Shown here in pieces: positions 35,548 through 49,506 of a DNA stretch of 64,000 bases. The stretch lies in NCBI GenBank assembly GCA_001544655.2, contig FCOD02000003.1, forward strand, positions 310,001 through 374,000, read 5' to 3'. The notes under the pieces are model-generated. The model had not been told where the DNA came from, did not search any database, and saw only the letters and a list, made by a program, of their open reading frames with translations. The translations under genes and the position numbers were made by a program. The stretch's first letter is position 1. Each line of letters opens with the position of its first letter. The stretch is from Caballeronia turbans. GTDB taxonomy: Bacteria; Pseudomonadota; Gammaproteobacteria; Burkholderiales; Burkholderiaceae.

Positions 35548-38265
35548 TCAGCGCAGCGGTGCAAGCGCGCGTTCGGCATCCGCAGTCGACAGCGCCATGC
35601 GTTCGGCGTAGCTCGCGAGCTGATCGTCGCCGATCTTGCCCACCGAGAAGTACGTGCTGTCGGGATGCGCGATGTAGAAGCCCGACACGCTCGCGGCCGG
35701 CAGCATCGCGAGCGACTCGGTCACGCTCATGCCGATTTCGTTCGCCTGAAGCACTTCGAACATGTCGCGCTTCACGAGGTGATCCGGGCACGCCGGATAA
35801 CCCGGCGCCGGGCGGATGCCGACATACTTCTCCGCGATCAGCGCATCGTTGTCGAGCGTTTCGCTCGACGCGTAGCCCCACAGTTCCCGGCGCACGCGCG
35901 CGTGGAGCGCTTCGGCGAAAGCCTCCGCGAAACGGTCGGCCAGCGCCTTGAGCATGATCGCGCTGTAGTCGTCGTGATCGGCTTCGAACTGTTGTTCCTT
36001 TTTGTCGACGCCGAGGCCCGCCGTCACCGCGAAGAGCCCGATGTAATCCTTCACGCCCGACTCCTTCGGCGCGATGAAATCGGCGAGCGAGCGGTTCGGG
36101 CGCATCACGCCATCGACGACCGGACGCACGCTCTGCTGACGCAGATTGCGCCAGGTCATCGCGACTTTCGAGCGTGATTCGTCCGTGTAGATCTCGATGT
36201 CGTCGTCGTTTACGGTGTTCGCGGGCAGCAGCATGACGACGCCGTTCGCCGTGAGCCAGCGGCCCTGAATCAGGCGCGAGAGCATCGACTTGCCGTCGGA
36301 GAACACGCGCCGCGCCGACTCGCCGACGATCTCGTCGTTGAGAATCGCCGGATAGGGACCCGCGAGATCCCACGTCTGGAAGAACGGACCCCAGTCGATG
36401 TAGTTCGCCAGTTCCGCGAGGTCATAGTTCCTGAACACGCGCCGCCCGATGAAGGTCGGCTTTTTCGGCGTGTACGCGCTCCAGTCGATCTTCGTCTTGT
36501 TGGCGCGCGCCTCGTCGTACGTGACCATCGGCTGCGCTTTTCTGTTGGCGTGCTGCGTGCGGATGCGGTCGTAGTCGCTCTTCAGTTCATCGAGATACTT
36601 CGCCGCGCCTTCGTCCGACAGGAGGCTCGACGCCACCGACACCGAACGCGACGCATCCGGCACGTACACGACCGGCCCCTCGTAATGCGGCGCGATCTTC
36701 ACGGCGGTATGCACGCGCGAAGTCGTCGCGCCGCCGATGAGCAAAGGCGTCTGCTTGCCGCGGAAATAATCGTCGCGCTGCATTTCCGAGGCGACGTAAG
36801 CCATCTCTTCGAGACTCGGCGTGATGAGGCCGGAAAGCCCGATGATGTCCGCGCCTTCTTCCTTCGCCTTCTGAAGGATGGTCGCGCACGGCACCATCAC
36901 GCCCATGTTGACCACTTCGAAGTTGTTGCACTGGAGCACGACCGACACGATGTTCTTGCCGATGTCGTGCACATCGCCCTTCACGGTCGCGATGACGATC
37001 TTGCCCTTCGGCCGCACGTCCGCGCCGGCATCGGCGAGACGCTTCTTCTCTTCTTCGATGAACGGAATCAGATGCGCGACCGCCTGCTTCATCACGCGCG
37101 CCGATTTCACGACTTGCGGCAGGAACATCTTGCCCGCGCCGAACAGGTCGCCGACGATGTTCATGCCGTCCATCAGCGGCCCTTCGATGACGTTGATCGG
37201 ACGCCCGCCGGCCTTCTCGATCTTCGCGCGCACTTCTTCGGTATCTTCGACGATGAAGTTCGTGATGCCGTGCACGAGCGCGTGCGACAGACGCGCCTCG
37301 ACCGGCTGATTGCGCCATTCGAGGTTCTCTTCCTTCTTCGCGGCGCCGGTCTTGAACTTGTCGGCGACTTCGAGCAGACGGTCCGTGCCGTCCTCGCGGC
37401 GATTCAGCACGACGTCTTCGACTCTCTCGCGCAGTTCGGCGTCGAGGTCGGCATACACGCCGAGCTGGCCCGCGTTCACGATGCCCATGTCCATGCCCGC
37501 CTGAATCGCGTGATACAGGAACACGGTGTGAATCGCCTCGCGCACGGGATCATTGCCGCGGAACGAGAACGACACGTTCGACACGCCGCCGCTCACCTTC
37601 GCATGCGGCAGGTTCTGCTTGATCCAGCGCGTCGCATTGATGAAATCGACCGCGTAGTTGTTGTGCTCCTCGATGCCCGTCGCGATCGCGAAGATGTTCG
37701 GATCGAAGATGATGTCCTCGGGCTCGAAGCCGACCTCGTTGACGAGGATGTCGTAGGAGCGCTTGCAGATTTCCGTCTTGCGCTGGAACGTGTCCGCCTG
37801 GCCTTTCTCATCGAATGCCATCACGACCGATGCCGCGCCGTATCGGCGGATCAGTTTCGCGTGATGCCGGAACGCATCTTCGCCTTCCTTCAGCGAGATC
37901 GAGTTGACGATCGCCTTGCCTTGCACGCACTTCAGGCCCGCTTCGATCACTTCCCATTTCGACGAGTCGATCATGATCGGCACGCGCGCGATGTCGGGCT
38001 CCGATGCGATCAGATTCAGAAAGCGCACCATCGCGGCTTTCGAATCGAGCATGGCTTCGTCCATGTTGATGTCGATGATCTGCGCGCCGTTTTCGACCTG
38101 CTGCCGCGCGACGGCGAGCGCTTCGTCGAACTGGCCGTTCAGGACCATGCGCGCGAACGCCTTAGATCCGGTTACGTTCGTGCGCTCGCCGACGTTGATG
38201 AAGAGTGAGTTGTCGGTGACGTTGAACGGTTCGAGGCCGGAGAGACGCATCGTGTGATCGGTCAT
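35548..38265 (-). CDS. metH: Cobalamin-dependent methionine synthase, C-terminal polypeptide (pterin, B12 and activation modules)
   Basis: 905 aa from ATG 38265 (AAGAG upstream). Begins with the pterin-binding module ([18 protein letters not shown]), followed by the cap and B12-binding module with the axial His in [10 protein letters not shown] near 445 and a C-terminal SAM-dependent activation domain ([25 protein letters not shown]). It lacks the homocysteine domain, which is encoded by the next gene 22 bases upstream, so MetH is split in two. Together they transfer methyl from 5-methyl-THF to homocysteine. Confidence 0.95.
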
Positions 38266-38287
38266 GTCTGTTATCTCTTGTTCGATG

Positions 38288-39349
38288 TCAGGCTGCATCG
38301 CGATATTGCGAGGGGAAGGCGCGCGGCTTCACTTCAGCGAGCGCTTTCGCGATCTCCGCGATGTGCTCCGGCGTCGTGCCGCAGCACCCGCCCGCGACAT
38401 TCACGAGGCCCGCCGTTGCGAATTCCTTCAGCAATCCCGATGTCACGTCCGGTGTTTCATCGAATCCGGTGTCGCTCATCGGATTCGGCAGGCCCGCGTT
38501 CGGATAGCAGGACACGTAGGTGTCGCACAGCTTCGCCAGTTCGGCGATGTACGGGCGCATCAGCGCCGCGCCGAGCGCGCAGTTCAGGCCGAACGTGAGC
38601 GGCTTCGCGTGACGCAGCGAGTTCCAGAACGCTTCCACCGTCTGCCCGGACAGAATGCGGCCCGATGCATCGGTGACGGTGCCCGAGATCATGATCGGCA
38701 CCAGCTCGCCGGTATCGTCGAAGAGTTGATCTAGCGCGAACAAGGCCGCTTTCGCGTTCAACGTGTCGAAGATCGTTTCGACGAGAAACAGATCGACGCC
38801 CGCATCGAGCAGCGCCTTGGCCTGTTCGTAGTACGCGTCGCGCAGCTCGTCGAACGTGACGTTGCGCGCGCCCGGGTCGTTCACGTCGGGTGAGATGCTC
38901 GCGGTCTTGGGCGTCGGTCCGATCGCGCCCGCGACGAAGCGCGGCTTGGCCGGCGTCGAATACTTGTTGCAGGCTTCGCGCGCGAGCTTCGCCGACTCGA
39001 TGTTCATCTCCGCGGCAAGGTCTTCCATGCCGTAATCGGCCTGCGCGACGCGCGTGGCGCCGAAGGTGTTCGTCTCGACGATGTCGGCGCCCGCCGCCAG
39101 ATACTGCTCGTGAATCTCGCGGATGACCTGCGGCTGCGTGATCGACAGCAACTCGTTGTTGCCCTTGATGTCGCGGCCGTAGTCCTTGAAGCGCTCGCCG
39201 CGATACGCGGCTTCGTCGAGCTTGTAGCGTTGGATCATCGTGCCCATCGCGCCGTCGAGGATCAGGATGCGTTTCTGCAGCAGCGCGGGCAGCGCGGCGC
39301 CGCGCGTATAGGCGCGCGCAGGGGCTTTCGGAAGGGCGTTCTGGGTCAT
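38288..39349 (-). CDS. Homocysteine S-methyltransferase module of split methionine synthase
   Basis: 353 aa from ATG 39349. TIM-barrel Hcy-binding domain: [25 protein letters not shown] and zinc cysteines in GLNCALGAA and [11 protein letters not shown]. It equals the N-terminal third of a one-piece MetH and is useless alone for the B12 reaction, so it must work with the 35548-38265 product. The split form is known in Burkholderia and relatives. Same strand, 22 bases between genes. Confidence 0.93.
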
Positions 39350-39451
39350 GACGGACGAGGCCTGCACCAAGTGTGAAATAGCCTGACATTGTAGCCGCAG
39401 CGCGGAGCGCTCGCCTCCGGGCGGCGGGCGCGCATCGGCGTGAAGCCGCCG

Positions 39452-46985: not shown

Positions 46986-47243
46986 GTTCGCGTCTACTGG
47001 CGCTCCCGTTCTGATCCCATGCCGGCGGCGCGCAATGCGCCGCCAGTTCCTTCGATGCGCAACGTTGCATCGAACCGCGTCTCGCGCCATTGCTTCGTCT
47101 ACTTGCCGGAATGTATTTCAGCCCCGACGAGCGTCTCGATTTTGTCTATGATGAAACATCGACGTCGATAGGACTTGTCCACCTTTAATACCGGGCACGT
47201 AATCTGCATCGAACGCGACGTGTGGTTTCGAAACGATTTGTCC

Positions 47244-48248
47244 ATGACGAACTCATCAGAACAAGACTTCGATTCAGAGCCGGTTTCCGATGGCGCCGAC
47301 GCGCCGGAACCCGACCCGCCGCGCACTGCGGCGACGGGCGTCACGGGAATCGGCATTGGCGCAATCGCTCAGGAGATTGGTCTGACGAAGGACACGCTGC
47401 GTGTCTGGGAGCGCCGTTACGGCTTTCCGCAGCCGATGCGGTCGCCCGGCGGCGAGCGGCTCTATCCGCAGGAGCAGGTGACGAAGCTGCGGCTCGTGAA
47501 GCGCCTGCTCGACGCGGGGCACCGGCCGAGCAAGGTGCTCGGGCAATCCATCGATTTATTGCAGCAGTTGGCCGAGAGTTCGGGCGTCGGGCAGGACGCA
47601 CCGGACGCCGAGCTGGATCATCTGATCGCGCTGTTGCGTACGAGCGCTTACGACGAGTTCCGCTTCGTGCTTCTCAAACGCGCGACGCGCGACGGGCTCG
47701 AGCGTTTCGTGCTGGATGTCGCGGCGCCGTTGTCGGCGCGGATCGGCAATGCGTGGGCGGCGGGCACCTTGCAGGTCTATCACGAGCATCTGTTCAGCGA
47801 AGCGATCCAGTCGGCGATGCGCACGCTGTTGCGTCCGCTCTCCGACGCCGTGCGCGGGCGCGGCGGCCGTCCGCGCGTACTGCTCACGACGCTCTCCGGC
47901 GAGGGCCACGGCCTCGGCATCCTGATGGCCGAAGCGATGTTCACGCTCTCCGAGTGCGATTGTGTCCAGCTCGGCCTGCAGACGCCGTTGCACGATATCG
48001 TCAATGCAGTAGCGGCGCATGACGTCGATATCGTTGCGCTGTCGTTTACCGCGGTGCTGCCGGCGCAGTCCATCGCGAACGGCCTTACCGACCTGCGCAA
48101 CCTGCTGCCGCCGCATGTGCGCATCTGGGTCGGCGGAAGCAGCCCGGCGCTGCGTCGCAAGCTCGACGATGGCGTGCAACACGTCGCAGGGTTGACCCCG
48201 ATCGATGAAACTGTCGCGCAATGGCGTGAATCGACCGTGCTAAGATGA
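47244..48248 (+). CDS. MerR-type regulator with cobalamin-binding domain, CarH/LitR-like
   Basis: 334 aa from ATG 47244. A short acidic N-terminal extension (about 1-34) precedes a MerR DNA-binding domain (38-105, GAIAQEIGLTKDTLRVWERR, FPQPMRSPGGERLY). Then comes a helical B12-cap domain with W171-x9-E181-H182, then a cobalamin-binding Rossmann domain with E220-x-H222-x-x-G225. These are the W-x9-EH and (E/D)xHxxG signatures of CarH/LitR B12 photoreceptors. The residue after the Trp, a His in the Thermus protein as I recall, is Ala172 here. The next gene encodes a di-iron desaturase-like enzyme. A regulator responding to B12 and possibly light is likely; light sensing is inferred. Confidence 0.85.
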   Translation: MTNSSEQDFDSEPVSDGADAPEPDPPRTAATGVTGIGIGAIAQEIGLTKDTLRVWERRYGFPQPMRSPGGERLYPQEQVTKLRLVKRLLDAGHRPSKVLGQSIDLLQQLAESSGVGQDAPDAELDHLIALLRTSAYDEFRFVLLKRATRDGLERFVLDVAAPLSARIGNAWAAGTLQVYHEHLFSEAIQSAMRTLLRPLSDAVRGRGGRPRVLLTTLSGEGHGLGILMAEAMFTLSECDCVQLGLQTPLHDIVNAVAAHDVDIVALSFTAVLPAQSIANGLTDLRNLLPPHVRIWVGGSSPALRRKLDDGVQHVAGLTPIDETVAQWRESTVLR

Positions 48249-48253
48249 AAAAC

Positions 48254-48269
48254 GCTCGCCGCGGCGAGC
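48254..48269. repeat. 16-bp perfect palindrome after the MerR-type gene
   Basis: GCTCGCCGCGGCGAGC flanked by A-run and TTT, 5 bases after the stop codon. Either an intrinsic terminator with a weak U-run or an operator. Confidence 0.5.
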
Positions 48270-48539
48270 TTTAAGCGCGGAGTTCGCGTGGCATGCGCGT
48301 CGCTGTCATGTGAGCACGTCATACTGGCCGGCCCGCACGGTTTCGGCGGCAGGATCGCGCCACTTGAAGATACCCCAGGCACAGGTTTCGCTCCTCACCC
48401 ACGGTAGAACAAGACGCACAACAGCAACATCTGCACGGGGAAGTGCAGTGTTTCGCAGGGCGCGAGCGTCCCGCAGCGCCAAATTTGCGCGCTCGTTGTC
48501 GCTTTTCGGCTTTGGCCGACCGAATCCCGCGTAAAATTG

Positions 48540-48567
48540 AAAGCTTGGCTGCTTGCGTGCAAGCTTT
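48540..48567. repeat. 8-bp inverted repeat upstream of the di-iron protein gene
   Basis: AAAGCTTG (48540-48547) and CAAGCTTT (48560-48567), 12-base spacer. Candidate regulator site, 63 bases before the start codon. Confidence 0.4.
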
Positions 48568-48630
48568 TCGCGCGACTCAGCCAAAGTCAATACAGATATA
48601 ACGTCGCATAAGTGGCATCAGGGGTGGACA

Positions 48631-49506
48631 ATGAACACCATGCTTTATCCGGAACTTTATAAATCGCTGGAATCCGTCCGCTGGGATATGGAGAAGGACA
48701 TTCCTTGGGACAAATTCGATGCGTCCCTGCTCACCGACGAGCAGGCCAGGACGATCAAGATGAACGCGATCACTGAATGGTCCGCTCTCCCCGCAACGGA
48801 AATGTTCCTGCGTGACAACCACGATGACAGCGACTTCTCCGCTTTCATGAGCGTGTGGTTCTTCGAGGAACAGAAGCACTCGCTGGTACTGATGGAGTAT
48901 CTGCGGCGCTTCAAGCCCGACATGGTGCCGACCGAAGAGGAACTGCACGCGGTGCGCTTCGAATTCGACCCGGCGCCGCCGCTCGAAACCTTGATGCTGC
49001 ATTTCTGCGGTGAAATCCGTCTGAACCACTGGTATCGCCGCGCGGCCGAATGGCACACGGAACCGGTCATCAAGCACATCTACGAAACCATTTCGCGCGA
49101 TGAAGCCCGCCACGGCGGTGCGTATCTGCGCTACATGAAAAAGGCGCTCGCGAATGCGGGCGACACCGCGCGCGCCGCGTTCGCGAAGATTGGCGTGCTG
49201 ATGGCTTCCGCGCGCCGCACGGAAAAGCCGCTGCATCCGACTAATCTGCATGTGAATCAGGCGCTCTTCCCGCGCGATACCGTGCAGTCGCGCCTGCCCG
49301 ACCCGGAATGGCTCGAGCGCTGGCTCGACGACCAGATCCGCTTCGACGACAGCTGGGAGAAGAAGGTCGTCGAACGTATCTTGCACAACCTGTCGATTCT
49401 GTTCGAGCGTTCGTTTGCGACCGCACAGGAGCTGAATCGCTATCGCAAGGAAGTGACGCAGCGTCTGCAAGCCGCGTCGGGCGGGGCGGCCGAGCAACCG
49501 GCCTGA
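48631..49506 (+). CDS. Di-iron ferritin-like / acyl-ACP desaturase-like protein
   Basis: 291 aa from ATG 48631. Four-helix-bundle di-iron pattern is complete: E49 (ITEWSALP), E80-x-x-H83 (FFEEQKHSL), E128 (CGEIRLNHWY) and E158-x-x-H161 (SRDEARHGGAYL). This is the E..ExxH..E..ExxH arrangement shared by stearoyl-ACP desaturases, AurF-like N-oxygenases and ferritin-like oxidases. No signal or membrane segment, so a soluble enzyme. Substrate uncertain. Its placement behind a B12-type MerR regulator suggests coupled regulation. Confidence 0.85.
   Translation: MNTMLYPELYKSLESVRWDMEKDIPWDKFDASLLTDEQARTIKMNAITEWSALPATEMFLRDNHDDSDFSAFMSVWFFEEQKHSLVLMEYLRRFKPDMVPTEEELHAVRFEFDPAPPLETLMLHFCGEIRLNHWYRRAAEWHTEPVIKHIYETISRDEARHGGAYLRYMKKALANAGDTARAAFAKIGVLMASARRTEKPLHPTNLHVNQALFPRDTVQSRLPDPEWLERWLDDQIRFDDSWEKKVVERILHNLSILFERSFATAQELNRYRKEVTQRLQAASGGAAEQPA

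Follow-up and report, generated by a model that had tools for sequence, protein, structure and literature searches.

The window, a 64,000-nucleotide stretch of contig FCOD02000003.1 of Caballeronia turbans (positions 310,001 to 374,000; assembly of 7.35 Mb in 120 contigs), carries at 47244-49506 a gene for a MerR-type regulator of the LitR/CarH family, here called litR, followed on the same strand by a gene for a di-iron protein. The main target of the regulator is most likely litR itself, judging from predicted operators that lie at and just before its start codon. No publication on this LitR protein was found among the papers listed in a literature search, mostly of open papers. The features on which the argument depends are the following:

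47244..48248, plus strand: LitR/CarH-family MerR regulator with a cobalamin-binding domain (Pfam, phmmer and residue check)
48631..49506, plus strand: di-iron protein of ferritin-like/acyl-acyl carrier protein (ACP) desaturase type, 291 amino acids (Pfam and ligand alignment)
47237..47251, plus strand: predicted LitR operator TTTGTCCATGACGAA, lying across the start codon of litR (matrix, 17.3 bits, rank 1 of 63,986)
47141..47155, plus strand: second predicted LitR operator TTTGTCTATGATGAA, 96 bp 5' of the first (matrix, 10.2 bits, rank 2 of 63,986)

The litR reading frame starts with an ATG codon at 47244 and stops at 48246-48248, and the 334-residue product is, by domain content, a class I-like member of the LitR/CarH family. 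An N-terminal MerR helix-turn-helix (HTH) domain (PF13411, MerR_1, 48.4 bits against a cut-off of 21.6) is accompanied by both halves of the B12 domain, the four-helix half (PF02607, B12-binding_2, 31.0 bits, cut-off 23) and the Rossmann half (PF02310, B12-binding, 43.5 bits, cut-off 32.1). The presence of PF02310 separates the protein from LitR class II, where the Rossmann half is missing, and the two halves together separate it from class III, where the C-terminus is unlike a B12 domain. The closest solved structures are those of Thermus CarH (phmmer; 3whp, E value 2.5e-24; 5c8d, 3.1e-24), with residues 38-313 aligning, but the protein is not filed as a CarH equivalog, since it scores 123.8 bits against the cut-off of 400 for NCBIfam NF052513 'repressor CarH'.

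A first-pass annotation of this DNA had proposed a CarH/LitR-type regulator with an intact adenosylcobalamin (AdoCbl) pocket, and had named W171, E181, H182, E220, H222 and G225. All of these residues are present at those positions, together with A172, and this part of the proposal is supported by the domains, the pocket signature and the AdoCbl machinery of the genome. The signature described for light-responsive MerR proteins with a cobalamin-binding domain, namely GxxW, EH, GxxH and GxxxP (PMC11796333), is found as GNAW at 168-171, EH at 181-182, GEGH at 219-222, and GLQTP. Also encoded in the genome are an adenosyltransferase of the CobA/CobO/BtuR family, MetH, HpnR and methylmalonyl-CoA mutase, which uses AdoCbl; the cofactor should therefore be available. 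Methionine synthase itself is found in the window in two overlapping minus-strand frames, 38288-39370 for the homocysteine S-methyltransferase part and 35548-38298 for the rest of MetH, including its B12 domain.

For comparison, the best 80 of 412 confirmed LitR loci were taken, a choice by which the set leans to close relatives. Thirty of these loci (L090-L118 and L129; 25 Caballeronia, and 5 Burkholderia or Candidatus Burkholderia/Paraburkholderia) make up the Caballeronia clade, and the remaining 50 (L119-L169 without L129) the non-Caballeronia set. The closest LitR among the 80 is that of Caballeronia sp. INDeC2, at 92% identity. The six pocket residues are identical in 31/31 clade sequences, with variation at the pocket edge represented by one Thr for A172 and one Asp for G219 of GxxH, while mean identity to the window LitR is 79% over the full length and 44% over the N-terminal 35 residues, missing residues being scored as different. 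The full strict signature is present in 42 of the 80 loci, and most of the other 38 carry a PQExH-like stretch in place of GxxH. The median ratio of nonsynonymous to synonymous substitution rates (dN/dS) is 0.19 for litR (465 pairs, 31 sequences) and 0.043 for the di-iron gene (406 pairs, 29 sequences), and both genes are therefore under purifying selection.

A different fate of the pocket is seen in a further genus of the same family (g8), where the LitR adjoining the di-iron gene (L052, L053, L055 and L056) has lost the pocket residues W, E and H; that of L052, for instance, has SAGGSPSAAHAP for WAAGTLQVYHEH. AdoCbl binding has thus probably gone in these proteins, with the HTH kept. In four more g8 genomes, of 1.1-1.2 Mb, no LitR match was found, and the di-iron gene is kept in three and fragmented with stop codons in the fourth (G007). 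From the size of these genomes one might guess that the genus is endosymbiotic.

The residue that follows the Trp is alanine in the window LitR (W-A, A172), whereas the phmmer alignment places the W-H of Thermus CarH there, so that the upper-ligand His132 of Thermus-type CarH has no counterpart. The first-pass annotation had noted this exchange correctly; it is a trait of the clade and not peculiar to the window, as the 80 closest loci carry A (52), M (14), L (6), T (4), I (2), S (1) or V (1) at this position, and His in none. The upper-ligand histidine is reportedly termed semi-conserved in the title of a paper known from a reference list alone.

The exchange raises the question of whether LitR reports B12 status, sensing AdoCbl but blind to light, with the His-to-Ala change removing the photoswitch. 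In Thermus CarH, His132 is the upper Co ligand in the light, the tetramer is stable only with AdoCbl, and one study found that an H132A variant largely remained a tetramer when illuminated, disassembly having been described in an earlier report (PMC10442372). The persistent H132A tetramer and the dependence on AdoCbl would suit a pure B12 sensor. However, CtMerR, with Arg at the equivalent position, still passes from a tetramer in the dark to a monomer in the light by native mass spectrometry, and its anaerobic light structure is described as having a Glu rearrangement in place of a bis-histidine (bis-His) state; the light-responsive SasPcob and AbDPcob likewise have a residue other than His there (PMC11796333). 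In addition, photolyase and FolE2 genes adjoin LitR in relatives where the residue is A, M, L, T or similar, and this setting speaks for light sensing. A B12 sensor without light response is therefore considered unlikely.

The operators were recognised from a palindrome shared by litR promoters. When exact 5-N(0-8)-5 palindromes were counted de novo in upstream and downstream regions, TTGTC-N3-GACAA ranked top in the 50 non-Caballeronia regions (26 upstream, 0 downstream), and joint top with its own shifted form in the 30 Caballeronia-clade regions (13 upstream, 0 downstream). A looser palindrome, of the TTTGTC-N3-GACAAA type, stands before litR in 45 of the 50 non-Caballeronia loci, as against 0/50 downstream and a mean of 0.2/50 in shuffled upstream sequence; in this set no more than 17 upstream bases are available for L169, and the downstream controls of L121 and L131 are shortened. 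The matrix was built from 92 non-Caballeronia site strings read on both strands, for which reason palindromes may count twice in it, and beyond the two sites before litR its third-best score across the 63,986 positions of the window is 7.4 bits. An unpaired TTGTCCA at 47175 was dropped as a third operator, scoring -8.2 bits. The site at 47237-47251 is one of two places in the genome with a single mismatch to the operator pattern, and the centre of TTTGTCTATGATGAA, TATGAT, looks by eye like a -10 hexamer. LitR had been expected to bind within 47100-47243 and 48249-48630; predicted sites lie in the first of these intervals and at its end (47141-47155 and 47237-47251), and none in the second.

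The same arrangement recurs among the relatives. Upstream of litR, 29 of the 30 clade loci have a site scoring 5 bits or more, and in 24 of the 30 it sits at the start codon, as in the window. At least two sites are found in 18 of the 30, spaced by 96-99 or 120-122 bp in 15 of the 18 and by 96-99 bp in 10. The 15 aligned Caballeronia litR promoters have recurring TTGTCYA boxes, one of them within TTTGTCCATGACAAA, which spans the start codon, and sites of the TTTGTCCTAGTCA and TTTGTCTAGGACAA types are found in 20 litR promoters of other genomes. Across 21 Caballeronia genomes, a site with at most one mismatch is present at litR in 16, and litR is beside the site in 15 of the 24 loci examined; no other recurrent target was found among these genomes, for which the lists are short. 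Outside Caballeronia the commonest spacing is 62-64 bp (20 of 36 intervals, 28 loci), or about six helical turns, and by eye the upstream operator seems to lie over the -35 element, an arrangement suggestive of one oligomer bridging the paired operators.

In relatives, the genes around LitR and its operators are largely those of a photo-oxidative response. Neighbour families were assigned by scanning 20 representative proteins followed by BLAST transfer (E value 1e-8, 40% length), and small genes were missed because a simple script had called the reading frames. Of the 50 non-Caballeronia loci, 42 have an amine oxidase, 28 DUF1365, 25 CMAS, 23 GSHPx, 15 photolyase and 14 FolE2. A fairly full set is present at L238 (Burkholderiales genome G294), comprising a DPRP photolyase, LitR, FolE2, a flavin amine oxidase, DUF1365, CMAS, Chalcone_3, MFS_2, DUF3833, SDR, SnoaL, the di-iron protein and an RfaE2-type cytidylyltransferase. 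By family and gene order, the amine oxidase would be UfaD-like and the CMAS protein UfaM-like, and the UfaO protein of furan fatty acid synthesis carries DUF1365 (PMC7380195). The 89 sites scoring 10 bits or more in the 50 loci lie near the starts of genes for LitR (64), GSHPx (33), amine oxidase (11), FolE2 (4), CMAS (2) and other frames (10), or near none (15), in a tally where one site can count for two genes. In Pseudomonas, the pmlR1 region is induced by light and holds photolyase, SDR, FAD oxidoreductase and UfaM genes (PMC9758184), and in a chrR mutant of Vibrio cholerae the merR-phr operon is strongly up under blue light (PMC5241685). With a photolyase beside LitR in 15/50 relatives, the original target set of LitR looks like a known photo-oxidative regulon, and the litR and di-iron pair of Caballeronia looks like a remnant of such a cluster.

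In the window itself, 28 of the 39 reading frames that a script lists from 27.3 to 63.4 kb were scanned, and none belongs to a photolyase or carotenoid-synthesis family. An earlier statement that no such genes are near thus holds for the frames scanned, and control of carotenoids by LitR was dropped as a candidate. PF04244 photolyase and DUF1365 were not found in the genome, other photolyase families not having been searched.

The protein encoded next to litR had been described as an E..ExxH..E..ExxH di-iron protein of the desaturase/ferritin-like superfamily, and this description is upheld. The ligands E57, E80xxH83, E128 and E158xxH161 are invariant in 24/24 aligned sequences (L147, with a stop in the stretch, and L159, whose match is split in two, being left out), and PF03405 (FA_desaturase_2) scores 35.1 bits against a cut-off of 22.7, with a best stretch of only residues 137-187. 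The closest solved structure, DesA2 (1za0), matches with an E value of only 0.025. The similarity to FA_desaturase_2 and the Ufa-type neighbours together suggest that the enzyme is probably O2-dependent and acts on fatty-acyl groups or another lipid. That 120 of 150 Burkholderiaceae genomes have the gene, and that its dN/dS is very low, suggests a role beyond the light response.

How often the two genes go together was assessed in this family sample, in 150 genomes of the order Burkholderiales and in 143 of the class, with LitR counted in the family and order samples at an E value threshold of 1e-15 that admits some distant matches, down to 27% identity. LitR occurs in 24 of the family genomes, and in most of the genera sampled the di-iron gene is present but LitR is not. 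In 15/15 sampled Caballeronia genomes, including that of the window, the two genes are adjacent on the same strand. The di-iron gene is downstream in 21 of the 24 family LitR loci, within about half a kb in 20, and in one some 1.2 kb off behind a litR with a stop codon. In the order sample, 60 genomes have the di-iron gene and 49 have LitR (both 35, di-iron only 25, LitR only 14, neither 76), a co-occurrence with a Fisher p of 6e-8 in a test that ignores genome relatedness. The two genes are at most 12 kb apart in 22 of the 35 genomes with both, being adjacent in 11, having starts 2.6-2.8 kb apart in 7, and lying about 9-10 kb apart in 4; six of the seven pairs at 2.6-2.8 kb were examined, and each has one photolyase-family gene in between. 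The di-iron gene was found in 5 of the 143 class genomes.

Among the 50 non-Caballeronia loci, the di-iron gene is present in 18 by tblastn (16 by BLAST family transfer). In 16 it is directly behind litR on the same strand, with about 25-185 bp between match ends, and in 15 of these 16 a site scoring 10 bits or more stands upstream of litR, the loci being the same as those behind the matrix. A common transcript is likely for these closely spaced pairs. In a LitR tree of 61 rows, the window protein falls within the Caballeronia clade, and the di-iron label changes 7 times as against 20.5 in shuffles, so that the linkage is clustered and has been gained or lost several times.

Whether LitR directly controls the Caballeronia di-iron gene by light or B12 from 48249-48630 is a separate matter. 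The adjacency in every sampled Caballeronia genome, the 16 loci outside the genus with the di-iron gene immediately behind litR, and the strong order-wide linkage would all favour such control. However, no operator was found in the interval, where the best match scores -1.8 bits (rank 45 of 63,986), and in the 420 bp 3' of litR 0/30 clade loci reach 5 bits, the best being 1.2 bits. The interval contains the following conserved elements:

48376..48408, plus strand: conserved intergenic block CAGGCACAGGTTTCGCTCCTCACCCACGGTAGA (15 Caballeronia loci aligned)
48527..48538, plus strand: CCGCGTAAAATT, conserved element 5' of the di-iron gene (upstream alignment, 20 regions)

About 100 bp upstream of the di-iron gene, GCGTAAAAT is invariant in 20/20 aligned regions, including those of genera without a LitR match in the sample, and CCGCGTAAAATT is probably part of the di-iron gene's own promoter. 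This promoter-like element in genera without LitR, and the 25 of 60 order genomes with the di-iron gene alone, likewise speak against direct control, which is judged improbable. The CAGGCACAGGTTTCGCTCCTCACCCACGGTAGA block is strongly conserved in the 15 Caballeronia loci and recurs in part in L031 and L034, whose genus gave no LitR match; its GG-N10-GC layout resembles that of sigma-54 promoters. An Rfam scan of the intergenic region gave three matches, all under the gathering score, and the idea of a riboswitch or another known RNA there was rejected. As a candidate terminator after litR, the GCTCGCCGCGGCGAGC hairpin is listed on the minus strand only, and its fold is not better than that of shuffled sequence (z 0.21). 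The gap between the two genes in Caballeronia is about 386-468 bp, and a common transcript there is possible but unsupported.

The earlier suggestion of a control link between LitR and the di-iron gene is thus upheld as an association, which extends well beyond the genus and is well supported across the order, but not as an operator before the di-iron gene. Direct control here is weakly supported because no operator precedes the gene, which keeps a conserved promoter element of its own, and because PF04244 photolyase and DUF1365 are absent from the genome. The lack of an operator and of these two families also favours a further explanation, that the two genes are neighbours by inheritance only, LitR acting on itself or at distant sites and the enzyme being physiologically unconnected with it. 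Copies of litR with no di-iron gene in the stretch covered (L101, on a short contig; L109; and three in G446, L297, L298 and L299) point the same way, whereas the adjacency in all 15 Caballeronia genomes, in a family where most genera have the di-iron gene without LitR, weighs against it. This explanation is a serious contender, placed somewhat below an even chance, and it is compatible with the autorepressor part of the explanation preferred below. The three G446 copies carry a TTTGTCTATGATAAA site, and L297 and L299 lie, by eye, in near-identical stretches with transposase-like frames.

Taken together, the pocket, the operators, the cluster and the co-occurrence, all of them features of the sequence itself, make it probable that LitR is an AdoCbl-dependent, light-released autorepressor of class I-like type, with the cluster shrunk in Caballeronia to litR and the di-iron gene. 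In the dark, LitR would bind AdoCbl, with His222 as the lower ligand and Trp171 and Glu181 against the adenosyl group, and would oligomerise and sit on the two TTTGTC-N3-GACAAA palindromes of its own promoter, one of them over the start codon. Light would break the Co-C bond and release LitR. With Ala at 172, a bis-His state as in Thermus CarH could not form, and release would follow another route, such as that proposed for CtMerR, after which litR would be derepressed. In related Burkholderiales, the same operators would serve litR and, divergently, the photo-oxidative genes, with the di-iron gene often right behind litR or at the end of a FolE2/Ufa-type gene run. In Caballeronia, the di-iron gene with its own promoter element would feel light at most through read-through from litR. 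Of the light- or B12-responsive control first suggested for this locus, the LitR with an intact pocket, the association with the di-iron gene and the predicted sites before litR are retained, and control from 48249-48630 is not supported.

Several results weigh against the autorepressor explanation. The matrix test is only partly independent, since the motif was first suspected in Caballeronia itself. Genome-wide, TTTGTCYHDGACAAA with at most two mismatches gives 18+11 matches, both litR sites included, as against 16+16 for a reversed-pattern control; the 29 matches are no commoner than the 32 of the control, so that no wider regulon shows, and one was not retained for this genome. Besides the two litR sites, five matches are intergenic (L256, L258, L261, L266 and L268, with 2 mismatches each), and most others are inside reading frames. 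A second pattern, taken from the litR promoter itself, has 205 matches against 96 in its control, an excess not explained by targets. Of its 11 places with 0-1 mismatches outside litR, 10 are within reading frames (one a doubtful frame, L069) and L072 is unplaced; the placement script took sites as centred, an assumption wrong for L072 and L259. Ala172 could also blunt the light response, given the Thermus H132A variant that mostly stayed tetrameric in one study. Lastly, litR evolves faster than the di-iron gene.

A broader proposal, offered tentatively and with rather more doubt than confidence, is that the Burkholderiales LitR clade combines AdoCbl light sensing without the upper His, binding to spaced palindromes and control of a gene set that includes the di-iron oxygenase, an enzyme nearly invariant in the family and here representing an unrecognised lipid-modifying photo-oxidative step beside furan-fatty-acid genes, with Caballeronia as the minimal circuit. 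The highly conserved di-iron enzyme, near genes of furan-fatty-acid type, would then be a possible member of the bacterial sunlight response. The clade would also provide candidate B12 photoreceptors that naturally lack the switch histidine of CarH and have an exact predicted operator, making the need for bis-His ligation directly testable.

Among known systems, the di-iron protein resembles the acyl-ACP desaturase/FA_desaturase_2 enzymes and the BioE-type di-iron oxygenases (PMC12915131) in its E, ExxH, E, ExxH ligands, BioE being compared by description only. The class III LitR of Burkholderia multivorans is of the same protein family and, like the window LitR, from Burkholderiaceae, but is described as having a C-terminal domain without similarity and as needing another chromophore (PMC9758184, PMC6739363). 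The class II LitR proteins of Pseudomonas (PplR1-3, PmlR1/2) have photolyase, short-chain dehydrogenase, FAD oxidoreductase and UfaM genes as neighbours and FolE in their regulon, much as in the relatives discussed here. Unlike in the window LitR, their B12 domain is reduced to the four-helix half, PmlR2 is under a LOV protein, their sites are TGTACA-N12-TGTACA, and no di-iron gene is named in the passages covered (PMC9758184). CtMerR (8JBS/8JBT), only distant from the window LitR (E value 7.4e-9), shares with it the GxxW/EH/GxxH/GxxxP signature and a residue other than His, in this case Arg, at the 132 position (PMC11796333). Thermus thermophilus CarH (5c8d, 3whp) shares the MerR HTH, the cobalamin domain and the pocket of W, E, H and ExHxxG, but differs in His132 for Ala172, and no carotenoid gene is among those scanned in the window. 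Its operator consists of tandem 11-bp direct repeats, nnnnTnnACAn (PMC9304148), in place of which the window has predicted TTTGTC-N3-GACAAA palindromes, although the predicted half-site TGTCCA does match the complement of TnnACA.

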